Below, one piece after another: positions 10,886 through 37,869 of a DNA stretch of 38,175 bases. Source of the stretch: Candidatus Gribaldobacteria bacterium (GTDB lineage: Bacteria; Patescibacteriota; Minisyncoccia; Minisyncoccales; CG1-02-41-26). The stretch covers positions 1 through 38,175 of the forward strand of contig JAPLWE010000036.1 of assembly GCA_026396705.1 (NCBI GenBank), read 5' to 3'. Position 1 is the stretch's first letter. The number at the start of each line of letters is the position of its first letter. The notes below the pieces were generated by a model. That model had not been told where the DNA came from. It saw nothing but the letters and a program-made list of their open reading frames with translations, and ran no database searches. A program made the position numbers and the translations under genes.

Positions 10886-10923
10886 AGGACTTATGGTGAT
10901 GTTAGGGGCTCGGAGAGTTAGTT
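10886..10923 (+). repeat. Left-end fragment F of the dispersed element
   Basis: GGACTTATGGTGATGTTAGGGGCTCGGAGAGTTAGTTT. Confidence 0.88.
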
Positions 10924-12585
10924 TAATTGTAGCTTTTTTTTCAAAAAAGTTAATAGCTCTTTGCATAAAATAATCGGCTCTTTAACGCCCAATAGCCAAC
11001 AAGTTGTCAGGTAAACTGCTCCGGAAAACACAACCGTTAAAAACGCCTGCAAAAATATGCCCAAAACTGTATTAACAATTAAAAATGCTGCGCCTACCCT
11101 CAAAAAAATATAAGCGCTTGCCGACATTATCAAACAAGCCAGTAAAATTTTTATAATAAAAGAACGATCAAACAATGATTTGCCAGAAATATTTATTTTT
11201 CTTTGCAAACTATTTGATAACCAAAAAAATTGAATAATGGTGGAGAAAGATAAGGCCAGTGGCAAGGCTAAAATTGATAAATTATCTATGCCTTTTAGCT
11301 TAAACAAAAAAGAGAAAAAATTAGCAATCGCTTGATGGCTTGCTAGTAATTTCACCAATAACCACGCTGAAAGCAAGTTCAATAAAACCGACCAAACAGC
11401 AATTTTTACAGGTGTTTTGGTGTCATGTAAAGCATAAAACGCTCTAGCTAAAAGAGGAATCAAGCAAGCGGCAAAAATAGACAAGGAAAAAATTCCCAAA
11501 GCAGCCGCCGTCAAACGAGTTTCCCACCAGCCGAAGTAACCAGAGGCAGTTAACTGCGTGCCGTATAAAATTCTAATGATTTGCGCTCTTAAAATAAACA
11601 TCAAGCAACTTACTGGCGCAACGCATAAAATAACTTTTCTCAATACAGGCGAAATTGCGCTAAAAAACTTATCTTTATTGCCAGCAGCCGCATAACGGGA
11701 AAGAATTGGAAAAATAACAGCCGCAAATGGCACGCCAATCAAGCTCACTGGCACACCATAAAGATTGTTTGATAAATTAAAAATCTTGATAGAGCCAACC
11801 GCCAACATAGAGGCAATAGCAGTAAGTATTACTAAATTTAATTGATAGGCGGCCGATCCAAAAACGCGTGGTGTCATTAGCTTAAAAATTTTCCGCAATT
11901 CAGATGAGCGAAAATCAATTAATAACCGTGGGCTAAATCCCATTCTTAAAAGAGGGGGCACTTGAATTAAAAGATGCATCCCAGCCCCTAAAACAACCCC
12001 CCAAGCCAATCCCAAAAGCCCCATTTTTGGGAAAAAAAACAAAAGCCCAATAATAATACCCAAATTATAAAACAAAGGAGCCAATGAAAAAGCGACAAAA
12101 AAATTAAAATACTGCAAAACAGAAGAAAAAATCGCTGAAACGCCCAGGGCAATCGGACTGAAAAACATTATTCTAACTAAAGCGACGGTTTGCAACTTTT
12201 GTGGCAAAGAAAAGCCCGGCGCTATAACTTTGACGATTAGGGGCGCGAAAATAGCTAACAAAACAGATAAAATTACCAAGAATAAACCAAAAACAGTAAA
12301 AACATTATTAAACAAACGACGGGCTTCTGTCTGACTATTCTGAAAGGAATGAGCAAAAACCGGCAAAAAAGCCGCCACCACTCCCCCTGTAATTAAAAGC
12401 CCATAAACAAAATCAGGAATACGAAAAGCAGCCCAATAAACATCCGCTTGAGCATTACTTAAAAAGTTAGCCAATAGATTATCTCTTAAAATAGCTAAGC
12501 CATACCCTAAAAAAGTAGCAATTGAAACAAAAAAGACCGCTTTGTTAACGGTATGAGTTTGAAAATTTAAAATTTTCTTTAACAT
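10918..12585 (-). CDS. murJ: MurJ/MviN-family lipid II flippase
   Basis: Multi-TM protein with MviN features (LRDNLLANFLSNAQADVYWAAFRIPDFVYGLL...). ATG at 12585 preferred over the TTG at 12591. Confidence 0.88.
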   Translation of the reverse strand: MLKKILNFQTHTVNKAVFFVSIATFLGYGLAILRDNLLANFLSNAQADVYWAAFRIPDFVYGLLITGGVVAAFLPVFAHSFQNSQTEARRLFNNVFTVFGLFLVILSVLLAIFAPLIVKVIAPGFSLPQKLQTVALVRIMFFSPIALGVSAIFSSVLQYFNFFVAFSLAPLFYNLGIIIGLLFFFPKMGLLGLAWGVVLGAGMHLLIQVPPLLRMGFSPRLLIDFRSSELRKIFKLMTPRVFGSAAYQLNLVILTAIASMLAVGSIKIFNLSNNLYGVPVSLIGVPFAAVIFPILSRYAAAGNKDKFFSAISPVLRKVILCVAPVSCLMFILRAQIIRILYGTQLTASGYFGWWETRLTAAALGIFSLSIFAACLIPLLARAFYALHDTKTPVKIAVWSVLLNLLSAWLLVKLLASHQAIANFFSFLFKLKGIDNLSILALPLALSFSTIIQFFWLSNSLQRKINISGKSLFDRSFIIKILLACLIMSASAYIFLRVGAAFLIVNTVLGIFLQAFLTVVFSGAVYLTTCWLLGVKEPIILCKELLTFLKKKLQLN

Positions 12586-12619: not shown

Positions 12620-13102
12620 CCTTAGCAAATTAAGCAACTGCTGTGTTTATAATAACAAATTATGAGCACAGAGGAAAGTCCGAACTCCCCCAAGCGTATA
12701 ATTTATGCGTTTGGAGCAAGGTAGTGGGTAACACCCGCACGCGGTAACGCGAGAGTTGCGAGCAGAGACGCTCCAAGCTGAAAAGCAAAGAGCACCAAGA
12801 AATTTTCTTGGTGAATCTCGAGGGAAACCTTGAGGGTGAAACGGCTAAATACTTACCTGGGAGCAAGAGCAAACCAGACAGGAAATGCAGAGGTCGAAAA
12901 TACCGAGGGCAGACCTCCCTTAAACTGAATATTATATTTATTCAAATTAGAGGAGGTCTGCCCTCGGTATTTTTGACCCGACCTCTGCATTTCCTGTCTG
13001 GAAAAGTAGCTCGCATGACCCTAACAGCAATGTTAGGGCTAGATAAATGGTTGCACTCTGCTTTAAGCAGAGCACAGAATTCGGCTTACAAATTTGCTAA
13101 GG
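12620..13102 (+). ncRNA. rnpB: RNase P RNA
   Basis: GAGGAAAGTCCGAACTCC core, late motif 'GCTAGATAAATGG', 3' 'CACAGAATTCGGCTTA'. P1: CCTTAGCAAATT (12620-12631) pairs with AATTTGCTAAGG (13091-13102), then TTTTTT. Confidence 0.93.
12874..13001 (+). repeat. Long inverted repeat (extra hairpin) inside rnpB
   Basis: CCAGACAGGAAATGCAGAGGTCG.AAAATACCGAGGGCAGACCTCC (12874-12918) pairs with 12952-13001, interrupted by one ~5-nt bulge; AT-rich loop. Confidence 0.95.
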
Positions 13103-13541
13103 TTTTTTGTTTATTTTTTTGATCAAGCGCTTCATTAACCAAGTGGTCAGCTGCGCTGTTTTGTTCACGAGGTATCGCCACAAAATTAACAATTGAAAAA
13201 TCAATCAATAAATTCCAAGCCTCTAGAAATAGTGGCTGGATTTTTTCGCCATTTATTTTATAGCGATGAGATAATTGACGCACTAAAAGCTCTGAATCTG
13301 ACCTTACCTCAAAAACATACTGCTTAAGATTCTCTTTACCAAAAATCTGCTTGGCTTTTTTCAAAGCAAAAATTAAACCGCCATATTCGGCTTCATTATT
13401 GGTGGCAATGCCCATAGTTTCCCCGTAGCTCTTAATAACAACCCCATTCTCGCGACTAAAAACAACGCCAAAAGCAGCTGGTCCGGGATTGCCCCTTGAG
13501 CCACCATCAATATTAATTATTATTTTTTCCATACATTTCAT
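13086..13541 (-). CDS. RNase HI-like protein
   Basis: IINIDGGSRGNPGPAAFGVV...NNEAEYGGLIFAL...RSDSELLVRQL: RNase H catalytic motifs. Start may be the ATG at 13532. Confidence 0.88.
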   Translation of the reverse strand: MKCMEKIIINIDGGSRGNPGPAAFGVVFSRENGVVIKSYGETMGIATNNEAEYGGLIFALKKAKQIFGKENLKQYVFEVRSDSELLVRQLSHRYKINGEKIQPLFLEAWNLLIDFSIVNFVAIPREQNSAADHLVNEALDQKNKQKTLANL

Positions 13542-14697: not shown

Positions 14698-14764
14698 TGA
14701 TGTTAGGGGCTCGGACAACTAATTTCAAAGAGACGCTCACTCGCTCCAGCGGCTGTAAGTCATA
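14698..14764 (+). repeat. Truncated copy E of the dispersed element (left arm plus right terminal 'GTAAGTCAT')
   Basis: ATGATGTTAGGGGCTCGGACAACTAATTTCAAAGAGACGCTCACTCGCTCCAGCGGCT|GTAAGTCAT. Confidence 0.88.
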
Positions 14765-17272: not shown

Positions 17273-17443
17273 GGCTTGCGCTAATGTTTGGGACTCGGAG
17301 AGTTAGTTTCAAGGAGACGCTCACTCGCTCCGGCGGCTCGTTCGCTTAGTTTTCGGCCTTATTTTCCGCCAGTAAGCGGAACCAAGCAAATAGGCCTCAA
17401 AATACTCCTTGAAACTAACTTCCTCGCCCCAAACGCGCAAGCC
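17273..17443 (+). repeat. Dispersed palindromic element, full copy A
   Basis: GGCTTGCGCTAATGTTTGGGACTCGGAGAGTTAGTTTCAAGGAG...CTCCTTGAAACTAACTTCCTCGCCCCAAACGCGCAAGCC with internal hairpins. Confidence 0.95.
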
Positions 17444-21203: not shown

Positions 21204-21235
21204 GCTTAGGGGCTCGGAAAGTTAATTTCCGAACC
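21204..21235 (+). repeat. Degenerate fragment G of the dispersed element
   Basis: GCTTAGGGGCTCGGAAAGTTAATTTCCGAACC; also a mini-palindrome. Confidence 0.65.
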
Positions 21236-21255
21236 ATCCCCACATATATATAGAA

Positions 21256-24407: not shown

Positions 24408-24536
24408 AGTTTTTTATTAGATTATAATTATATTGGAGCTGGCAATAATACCTTTTGAGGTGCTCGAGTGTTCCCTCCGCGGATGTGGAGGCTTAAGCTC
24501 GGGAGCCCATCTCACTAGACGCCGCTCTACAAAAAG

Positions 24537-25226
24537 TCATCTTGCGAAAGGTGATTTTTTGTTTTTAGCAAAATTTTCCCAATAATCTTTAAATAGCTCC
24601 TCTGAAATAACAATACTGTTCTTAAACAAAGAAAAGTATTTTTCTCCATTTTTACCCTTGTTGTAATACCTAAACAAACCACCGCATATCCAATCCGCGA
24701 TTTGAATGTTTGTGTTATCAGCCGAATTTACTGCCTCCAATTGGACTACTGTTTTTTTGGAGAAATTTGGAGACAATCCTACTTTTAAAAATTCATTAAA
24801 CTTTGCCTGAGAAACCCCTTTTAGTTGTCTAAAATCTCTATAAACACGAAACTCTAAATCGCTTGTCGGCAAAAGAAACCGTAATGCTTGCTCTACGATT
24901 TCAGTGTATAGCAAGCCAGTTTCAATACCTTTTTTATTGCGATAACTCTCTGGTATATTTTTAACTTTAAAAAATACATAGAAAATCCTGATATCGCTTT
25001 GGGCTAAGTTTCCCAACGTTTTTAAGCGCATTTCTTCGGTAAGCCGAGTATCTGAAAATTTTAACTCTGTTCTATAACGGAGCTTTTTATTGGTAAGTTT
25101 TATTTTTCGCCACTTACGAAAAACCCTGGCAGTTCTTTTGGGTTCATTGGTAATAAAACCGCCCACAACAAAAAACTCATTTTGCTTCCCGCACAAATCT
25201 CCAGATTCATCAATAAAAATATACAT
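24537..25226 (-). CDS. DUF3800-like protein
   Basis: MYIFIDESGDLCGKQNEFFVVGGFIT...RTELKFSDTRL...VNSADNTNIQIADWICGGLFRYYN pattern. Confidence 0.8.
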   Translation of the reverse strand: MYIFIDESGDLCGKQNEFFVVGGFITNEPKRTARVFRKWRKIKLTNKKLRYRTELKFSDTRLTEEMRLKTLGNLAQSDIRIFYVFFKVKNIPESYRNKKGIETGLLYTEIVEQALRFLLPTSDLEFRVYRDFRQLKGVSQAKFNEFLKVGLSPNFSKKTVVQLEAVNSADNTNIQIADWICGGLFRYYNKGKNGEKYFSLFKNSIVISEELFKDYWENFAKNKKSPFAR

Positions 25227-29403: not shown

Positions 29404-29576
29404 ATGACTTAAGGTATGTTAGTGGCTCGGAGAGTTAGTTTCAAGGAGACGCTCACTCGCTCCGGCGGCTCGTTCGCTTAGTTTTCGGCCTATTTTCCGC
29501 TAGTAAGCGGAACCAAGCAAATAGGCCTCAAAATACTCCTTGAAACTAACTTCCTCGCCTCTAACCCATAAGTCAT
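29404..29576 (+). repeat. Dispersed palindromic element, full copy B
   Basis: ATGACTTAAGGTATGTTAGTGGCTCGGAGAGTTAGTTTCAAGGAG...CTCCTTGAAACTAACTTCCTCGCCTCTAACCCATAAGTCAT. Confidence 0.95.
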
Positions 29577-32285: not shown

Positions 32286-32457
32286 GCCTTGCGCTGATGT
32301 TAGGGGCTCGGATAACTAATTTCAAAGAGACGTTCACCCGCTCCAGCGGCGGGCTCACTTAGTTTTCGGCCTATTTTCCGCCAGTAAGCGGAACCAAGCA
32401 AATAGGCCTCAAAATACTCTTTGAAATTAGTTTCCTCGCCCCTAATTACGCAAGTCA
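32286..32457 (+). repeat. Dispersed palindromic element, full copy C (variant arms)
   Basis: CTTGCGCTGATGTTAGGGGCTCGGATAACTAATTTCAAAGAG...CTCTTTGAAATTAGTTTCCTCGCCCCTAATTACGCAAGTC. Confidence 0.95.
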
Positions 32458-36630: not shown

Positions 36631-36644
36631 ATATATATTGAGAT

Positions 36645-36809
36645 GGTTGCAAAACTATTCCTACTGCAATTTTAGCTTTTTGGCTACGACTTCGTCGGGC
36701 TGGCGTAAAAAGATTTTCACCATAGCTGGGCTATGGCTCAAATCTTTTTTCTTGCCCTCCTTGTCTCGCTCAAAAATCTAAACTTTCGCTACGGAATAGT
36801 TTTGCAACC
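36645..36809. repeat. Second, unrelated nested palindromic element
   Basis: Perfect 17-bp terminal inverted repeats GGTTGCAAAACTATTCC / GGAATAGTTTTGCAACC; inner AAAAAGATTT..AAATCTTTTT and CCATAGC..GCTATGG. Confidence 0.93.
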
Positions 36810-36817
36810 CTCTCTTT

Positions 36818-37282
36818 TTATTTATGACGAAGAAAAGGAGCTGGCATAACCCTAATTAGCTTAGCCTCTATTTGCCCGTTATTAGTTGGTTCGCCTATGA
36901 CCACCACCATATCATCAATTTGCAAATTATTTATTGTGATAGCCTCCTTAAGCCGATTAATAACTGTGCCATCCTTAACTAAAATAACTTTCTCAATATC
37001 TCCTTGTCCTTTAATCACCAATGTTGAGGGGGCAATTTTTATTATTTGCCCTACTGCGCCATTTGCCTCAATAAAATCTCTGTCGCCAAACCCGCCTGGA
37101 AAGCCGCCCTTTGGTCCACCAAAATTTTGATGATAATTATCACTCCAGTGGCAAGAAAAATTAGCTTTTTGAAAACCCACCATCATGCCTGCCTTAAAGA
37201 TAAACAAAAAAATAATCAATCCGCCAATCGCTAATAGAATTATTTTGAATGTTTTTGATTGAAAAAATTTGTCTATGTTCAT
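36818..37282 (-). CDS. Membrane-anchored DUF5666-like protein
   Basis: N-terminal TM plus GAVGQIIKIAPSTLVIKGQGDIEKVILVKDGTVINRLKEAITINNLQIDDMVVVIGEPTNNGQIEAKLIRV. Confidence 0.65.
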   Translation of the reverse strand: MNIDKFFQSKTFKIILLAIGGLIIFLFIFKAGMMVGFQKANFSCHWSDNYHQNFGGPKGGFPGGFGDRDFIEANGAVGQIIKIAPSTLVIKGQGDIEKVILVKDGTVINRLKEAITINNLQIDDMVVVIGEPTNNGQIEAKLIRVMPAPFLRHK

Positions 37283-37641: not shown

Positions 37642-37649
37642 ATTAGAAC

Positions 37650-37814
37650 TTACGCTGATGTTAGGGGCTCGGAGAGTTAGTTTCAAGGAGACGCTCACTC
37701 GCTCCTGCGGCTCGTTCGCTTAGTTTTCGGCCTATTTTCCGCCAGTAGGCGGAACCAAGCAAATAGGCCTCAAAATACTCCTTGAAACTAACTTCCTCGC
37801 CCCTAACCCGTAAT
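37650..37814 (+). repeat. Dispersed palindromic element, full copy D
   Basis: TTACGCTGATGTTAGGGGCTCGGAGAGTTAGTTTCAAGGAG...CTCCTTGAAACTAACTTCCTCGCCCCTAACCCGTAA. Confidence 0.95.
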
Positions 37815-37841
37815 TTTTTATATCTATATAATTAATACGAA

Positions 37842-37869
37842 AAAGAGATGCCTTTTGGTGCATCTCTTT
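37842..37869 (-). terminator. Terminator after the sigma factor gene
   Basis: Minus strand AAAGAGATGC-accaaaag-GCATCTCTTTTTC. Confidence 0.7.

Follow-up and report, generated by a model that had tools for sequence, protein, structure and literature searches.

The Hairpin Element and Its Copies in the Window

The window, meaning the whole stretch of 38,175 nucleotides that was analysed, corresponds to contig C38 in a draft genome of 847 kb. Among named organisms, this genome is closest to Ca. Gribaldobacteria CG10_41_12, with 81% amino-acid identity, and to other Paceibacterota. Four copies (A to D) of a hairpin element are present in it, along with truncated and collapsed copies (Table 1), and the genes flanking element copies are ordinary housekeeping genes. 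The genome as a whole carries about a dozen full copies, and more are found in the genus. The focal copy, C, lies between convergent genes and is matched by covariance model R1 from 32298 to 32447 on the minus strand (176.4 bits, E 4e-39).

Table 1. Hairpin element copies, parts of copy C, and other features of the window.
Feature	Position	Strand	Remarks
Truncated copy	10890-10925	-	Left end only; upstream of lepA
RNase P RNA	12622-13104		About 480 nt long, with an extra long palindrome at 12892-12978
Truncated copy	14698-14754	-	Left arm and part of P5
Copy A	17284-17433	-	Full copy
Collapsed copy	21205-21240	-	Outer arms kept, interior deleted, small hairpin remains
DUF3800-V RNA (Rfam RF02964)	24434-24529	+	Beside a DUF3800-like gene (24537-25226, minus strand)
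Copy B	29416-29564	-	Full copy; between divergent genes
Copy C (focal)	32297-32450 (core); 32287-32455 (with outer stem)	-	From sequence and fold
Copy C, outer left arm (CTTGCGC..TTAGGGG)	32288-32306	.	Partner 32439-32454
Copy C, GCTCGG	32306-32311	-	Conserved tandem-GA internal loop, left side (minus strand CCGAGC)
Copy C, long-stem left arm ATAACTAATTTCAAAGAG	32312-32329	.	Bears compensatory changes
Copy C, hairpin P5	32331-32359	-	Loop CCAGCG 32343-32348 (minus strand CGCTGG; order-wide CGCNGG)
Copy C, hairpin P4 GGCCTATTT..AAATAGGCC	32368-32408	-	AGTA loop; bulge ACCAAGC 32393-32399 (minus strand GCTTGGT; conserved GCWTGGT)
Copy C, long-stem right arm CTCTTTGAAATTAGTTTCC	32417-32435	.	
Copy C, CCTCGC and outer right arm CCCCTAATTACGCAAG	32434-32454	-	CCTCGC is the tandem-GA partner (minus strand GCGAGG)
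Second palindromic repeat	36634-36822		About 185 bp, 45-nt arms
Copy D	37658-37806 (core); 37644-37825 (mobile-unit limits)	-	G001:C74, which lacks the copy, gives the inferred limits

A preliminary description of this region held that substitutions in the arms are compensatory. Comparison of the copies bears this out: copy C has AACTAATTTCAAAGAG / CTCTTTGAAATTAGTT in place of the GTTAGTTTCAAGGAG / CTCCTTGAAACTAAC shared by A, B and D, with both arms altered together, and copy A shows a further paired change (GTTTGG / CCAAAC). The inner hairpins given for copy D (TTCCGCC-AGTA-GGCGGAA) and copy B (TTCCGCT-AGTA-AGCGGAA) are also correct. Omitted from that account was the inner hairpin of A and C, which in both reads TTCCGCC-AGTA-AGCGGAA and has a mismatched seventh pair (C·A, or T·G on the other strand); this pair has three states across the four window copies and is mismatched in half of them. 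Three fully compensated arm pairs differ between species when copy A is compared with its orthologue in the sister genome G001 (G001:C38:3915), and since the interior of copy A is common to B and D, replacement by another copy is an alternative reading of these differences.

The second dispersed palindromic repeat of the window is apparently unrelated to the hairpin element and lacks its core motifs. It has about 40 matches in G001 and a few in G002, and a DNA fold z of -8.5.

Fold and Conserved Unpaired Motifs

The element is 150–180 bases long and consists of a long stem, a three-way junction and two hairpins (P4 and P5) with conserved unpaired motifs. The fold of copy C is strongly stable (DNA z = -7.6, RNA z = -8.5), and none of 200 shuffles was as stable. 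Read on the minus strand of the window, the core found across the order runs AAGCGAGG, long stem, P4, P5, long stem and CCGAGCG. The conserved unpaired parts are the tandem-GA internal loop (GCGAGG/CCGAGC), the seven-base bulge of P4 (GCWTGGT) and the P5 loop (CGCNGG). These motifs are retained in 77 sequences that are less than 80% identical and in which the stems vary; between families, stem sequences differ almost completely while the unpaired motifs stay the same.

Two copies in G001 (L013 1501-1730 and L015 1501-1730) have about 80 extra bases within hairpin P5. This extra module is made up of a AAAGCCAATTGATTGGCTTT hairpin and a GGGCGATTT..AAATCGYCCC stem.

Distribution of the Family

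Searches with a covariance model built from 14 copies gave matches in 13 of 24 genomes of the host family, one of which had 24 matches. In the host order, which belongs to the CPR, 58 of 147 genomes carried the element, and these fell in 47 of the 106 genera sampled and in 30 families (counted by hand); matches near the threshold may be false, and nearly all copies that were aligned and used score above 55 bits. A phylum-wide sample gave 11 positive genomes among 294, most outside the host's class. Copy numbers in draft genomes are lower bounds, as contigs C5 and C19 of G105 (L287 and L294) break inside identical copies.

No Rfam family matched the element, even at relaxed E-values, and a literature search of incomplete coverage found no description of it. 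It is placed, with some confidence, as an undescribed family of MITE-like elements whose core is conserved in fold and which occurs in an order of CPR bacteria. Two strings, GCATGG and CGCTGG, resemble HDV, but an HDV-like ribozyme was rejected, as the helix order differs and Rfam gives no match. A 16-base core pattern matched viral contigs 46 times, but the covariance model backed none of these matches, and they were put down to chance.

Covariation of Paired Positions

The preliminary description looked to covariation among a large number of copies as a sign of a maintained fold. In an R-scape-type test (FastTree tree, Fitch reconstruction, branch-preserving null alignments, and a G statistic with APC), covariation was far in excess of phylogenetic expectation, with 43 of 50 pairs significant on a model-fitted alignment of 103 sequences. 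Such an alignment leans towards the structure, so a second run used 137 sequences aligned by MAFFT blind to the structure; there, 22 of 50 pairs were significant against the tree-based null. A scan of all column pairs of the MAFFT alignment returned 21 significant pairs, of which 17 coincide with pairs of the structure and the remaining four are off by no more than one column; a control in which the partners were slid by 1–3 columns gave 1–5 significant pairs. A lack of such excess in a large set of copies, the outcome that would have spoken against the preliminary description, was therefore not observed.

DNA or RNA as the Folded Form

Selection on an RNA copied from one strand would be expected to let G·U pairs, but not A·C, persist on that strand. 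Mismatches were counted with a scoring that treats G·T and A·C alike. The arms contain 3589 Watson-Crick pairs, 87 G·T and 66 A·C (P = 0.11); the corresponding numbers are 1053, 3 and 4 for the lower stem of P4, 757, 5 and 8 for its upper stem, and 246, 1 and 0 for P5. As a control, 87 tRNAs from genomes of the same order gave 1430 Watson-Crick pairs, 43 G·T and 1 A·C. On the model-fitted alignment the element showed 136 G·T to 65 A·C, which is far below the tRNA ratio, and this lean towards G·T is probably an effect of an aligner built with a pairing model.

The first tRNA control comprised only 11 tRNAs, and SRP RNA (RF00169) was dropped as a wobble control in favour of tRNAs because it was found in 1 of 40 genomes of the order. 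This bacterial small SRP RNA was matched in most control genomes and is either divergent or lost in the order. Among tRNAs, a tRNA-Sec match lying exactly at the gathering score (47 bits) was seen in a genome of the host's family (G023, L024 2043-2130).

The orientation of copies between co-directional genes was tallied by hand from rough automatic gene calls (copy B, for example, really lies between divergent genes). In most of the order, 80 copies have their genes on the minus strand of the model (R) and 9 on the plus strand (F), against 1 R to 12 F in the window's genus and 12 R to 7 F in genome G014. Orientation to genes therefore flips between lineages, which argues against a fixed role in mRNA; a role as an mRNA leader, hinted at by the window's genus, was dropped after the order showed the opposite orientation. 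An outward promoter in the arm (TTGAAA-17-TAACAT) is likewise not claimed: promoter-like sites number 30 where shuffling predicts 22, and about half of the copies lack TAACAT.

The balanced mismatches and the flipping orientation argue against selection at the RNA level and for an element that is kept foldable as DNA, and they point to the paired changes reflecting the upkeep of folded DNA rather than of an RNA copy. Maintenance at the DNA level is likely, and an RNA interpretation unlikely. The earlier proposal of selection on, or repair of, the folded form is thus upheld by the covariation as a general statement, and is not supported in its RNA half, given the lack of preference for G·U over A·C and the strand flips. 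Its cruciform or DNA half is favoured, and repair by copying from arm to arm is possible.

Mobility, Ends and Target Duplications

Several insertions are not shared between close relatives. At the site of copy D, the sequence of G001 runs TTCGTATTAGTAAT|ATATGGACG without the roughly 180 bases present in the window, and G002 appears to lack the copy as well (on a looser alignment). G001 also has a clean empty orthologous site for the copy at C30:30148, and the copy at C30:27752 is probably absent from it, the gap being less cleanly aligned. Some copies are nested in or lie beside other copies (L132, L111 and L108).

Sharp ends were seen in family f19, where eight copies from two genera (G105 and G083) are near-identical over about 245 bp and end in GGGTAAAGT...ACTTTACCC. 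Perfect 7-bp target duplications flank six of the eight, and one more has 6 of 7 bases. Shared ends together with 7-bp duplications are a signature of cut-and-paste transposition. A 7-bp duplication within 6 nt of the core was found in none of 100 other copies, and insertions without duplications are older, have other ends or moved differently. The f19 ends form terminal inverted repeats (GGGTAAAGT/ACTTTACCC), and f19 is the one family in which such repeats were seen together with target duplications; in other lineages the inverted arms covary and their sequence is specific to the lineage. The copy near L094 3458-3619 lies between 11-bp direct repeats, TTACGGTATAA, which may be a longer target duplication.

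A transposase or autonomous partner did not turn up: among five f19 genomes, the 23-bp end occurs in two, and there only in short copies or at contig ends. Y1_Tnp genes are present in 42 of the 58 element-bearing genomes and 38 of the 89 others (odds ratio 3.5, P = 6e-4, uncorrected for kinship). They were not matched in 16 element-bearing genomes, several of them rich in copies, and comparison of the order-wide lists showed no listed Y1 gene adjoining a listed copy.

Comparison with Known Mobile Hairpins

Classical MITEs are conserved in their end sequences and are not known to be conserved in fold. Like MITEs, the hairpin element is short, non-coding, multicopy and inserted at unshared sites, and its f19 copies share terminal inverted repeats and 7-bp target duplications with them. 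It differs from MITEs in a three-way-junction core with fixed unpaired motifs that can be recognised over some 30 families after the stems have wholly changed. Integron attC sites are folded DNA recognised by structure, with variable stems and a few fixed unpaired bases. Variable stems and a few fixed unpaired bases are likewise seen in the element, but it appears not to be linked to cassettes, and R and L boxes are not conserved across the order.

MITEs and enterobacterial repeats of the RU-1/ERIC type resemble the element in being palindromic, intergenic, multicopy, non-coding and insertion-polymorphic, at 100–250 bp (PMC10969869, PMC2759123). The REPINs of REP-RAYT systems are, like it, extragenic mobile hairpins that occur in clusters and leave remnants, and compensatory changes have been reported in their spacer stem too (PMC3116915). 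The element, in contrast, is not composed of two inverted REP units with conserved ends: P4 and P5 differ from each other, and the arm sequence is unconserved. Nor does a RAYT gene (Y1_Tnp) lie beside the listed copies, and 16 of the 58 element genomes are without Y1_Tnp. Hairpins maintained by template switching show paired changes without G-U intermediates and a loop inverted between lineages, as the element does, but they sit in RNA genes (PMC8794818), whereas the element is mobile DNA and its template-switch footprint is not significant.

Proposed Explanation and Alternatives

The region is best explained, in our judgement, as one copy of a dispersed, non-autonomous, MITE-like DNA element with a hairpin core, the complementarity of which is maintained at the DNA level. 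The element would be moved by a transposase encoded elsewhere, and the copies still able to form a DNA hairpin or cruciform would be those that keep spreading. Complementarity would be kept by the retention of fold-competent copies, and the copying of one arm from the other when a hairpin forms during replication probably also contributes. The compensatory changes in the window would then be differences between such copies, and not evidence of a functional transcript. Since the ends suffice for a classical MITE, a conserved fold and conserved unpaired motifs in the interior call for an extra reason. Tentatively, and at a lower level of confidence, the core may represent a new class of fold-recognised mobile DNA, in which an enzyme reads the three-way junction together with the GCWTGGT bulge, CGCNGG loop and tandem GA, and not end sequences.

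Instantaneous compensatory changes and inverted loops are documented products of template switching (PMC8794818). As this mechanism predicts, the window's genus and G014 carry opposite forms of the inner loop (TACT/AGTA) on identical stems. Over all copies, four loop inversions were found against 2.1 expected (P = 0.07, not significant). In comparisons of nearest copies, 21 one-sided changes led to G·T and 15 to A·C, against 19 double changes; one-sided changes are thus no rarer, and a paired change is often reached by way of a mismatch. Conservation of the unpaired motifs shows the fold to be under selection as well and to be read by something; by the balance of mismatches, this is not a reader of RNA that tolerates wobble in the normal way. 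It is improbable that mutation alone, through arm template switching (quasipalindrome correction), makes the paired changes and that no function of the fold is under selection. The balance of mismatch types, the occurrence of multi-base paired changes and the inverted loop would fit such a process, but the loop inversions fall short of significance, one-sided changes are frequent, and motifs conserved across the order are not accounted for by mutation alone.

A structured RNA, either a cis-acting mRNA leader or trailer or a small RNA, that spread by duplication and covaries through selection on its RNA fold would explain several observations: the three-way junction, tandem GA and conserved unpaired motifs look RNA-like, copies fall immediately between stop and start codons and, within each lineage, are strongly biased in orientation, and covariation exceeds phylogenetic expectation. 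We consider it unlikely, since G·U is not favoured over A·C (43:1 in tRNAs), lineages differ in which strand is gene-sense, relaxed E-values still bring no Rfam match, and the insertions are recent and unshared. Transposition as a single-stranded DNA hairpin by an HUH/Y1 (RAYT-like) enzyme, in the manner of REPINs, would suit the strand-asymmetric unpaired motifs, the lack of target duplications at core ends in most lineages and the commoner Y1_Tnp genes of element-bearing genomes (kinship uncorrected). The inverted-repeat ends and 7-bp duplications of f19 are unlike Y1 transposition, and these, with the 16 element-bearing genomes without Y1_Tnp and the absence of a listed Y1 gene beside a listed copy, make this route improbable too. 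Least credible, and very improbable, is an intrinsic (perhaps bidirectional) transcription terminator spreading as a repeat. Its appeal lies in the position of copy C between convergent genes and in the 34 of 63 R-oriented tandem copies that lie no more than 10 nt from a stop codon, but of 107 copies just 26 on one strand and 9 on the other have a T-rich tail (at least 6 of 10) after the stem, the gene upstream of copy D already has its own terminator (37842-37869), and the inner motifs have no terminator role.

For the MITE-like element proposed here, recognition of the fold would, if true, explain how the stems can drift freely, and strictly as Watson-Crick pairs, across a whole order. With hundreds of copies available, selection and hairpin-templated repair become testable against each other. 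Covariation is usually read as proof of a functional RNA, and here it is strong on a mobile DNA element; the comparison of G·T with A·C, with tRNAs as a yardstick, is a caution for automated RNA discovery in uncultured bacteria. The repeat family extends across an order of CPR bacteria, the small genomes of which are not usually thought to be rich in mobile hairpins.
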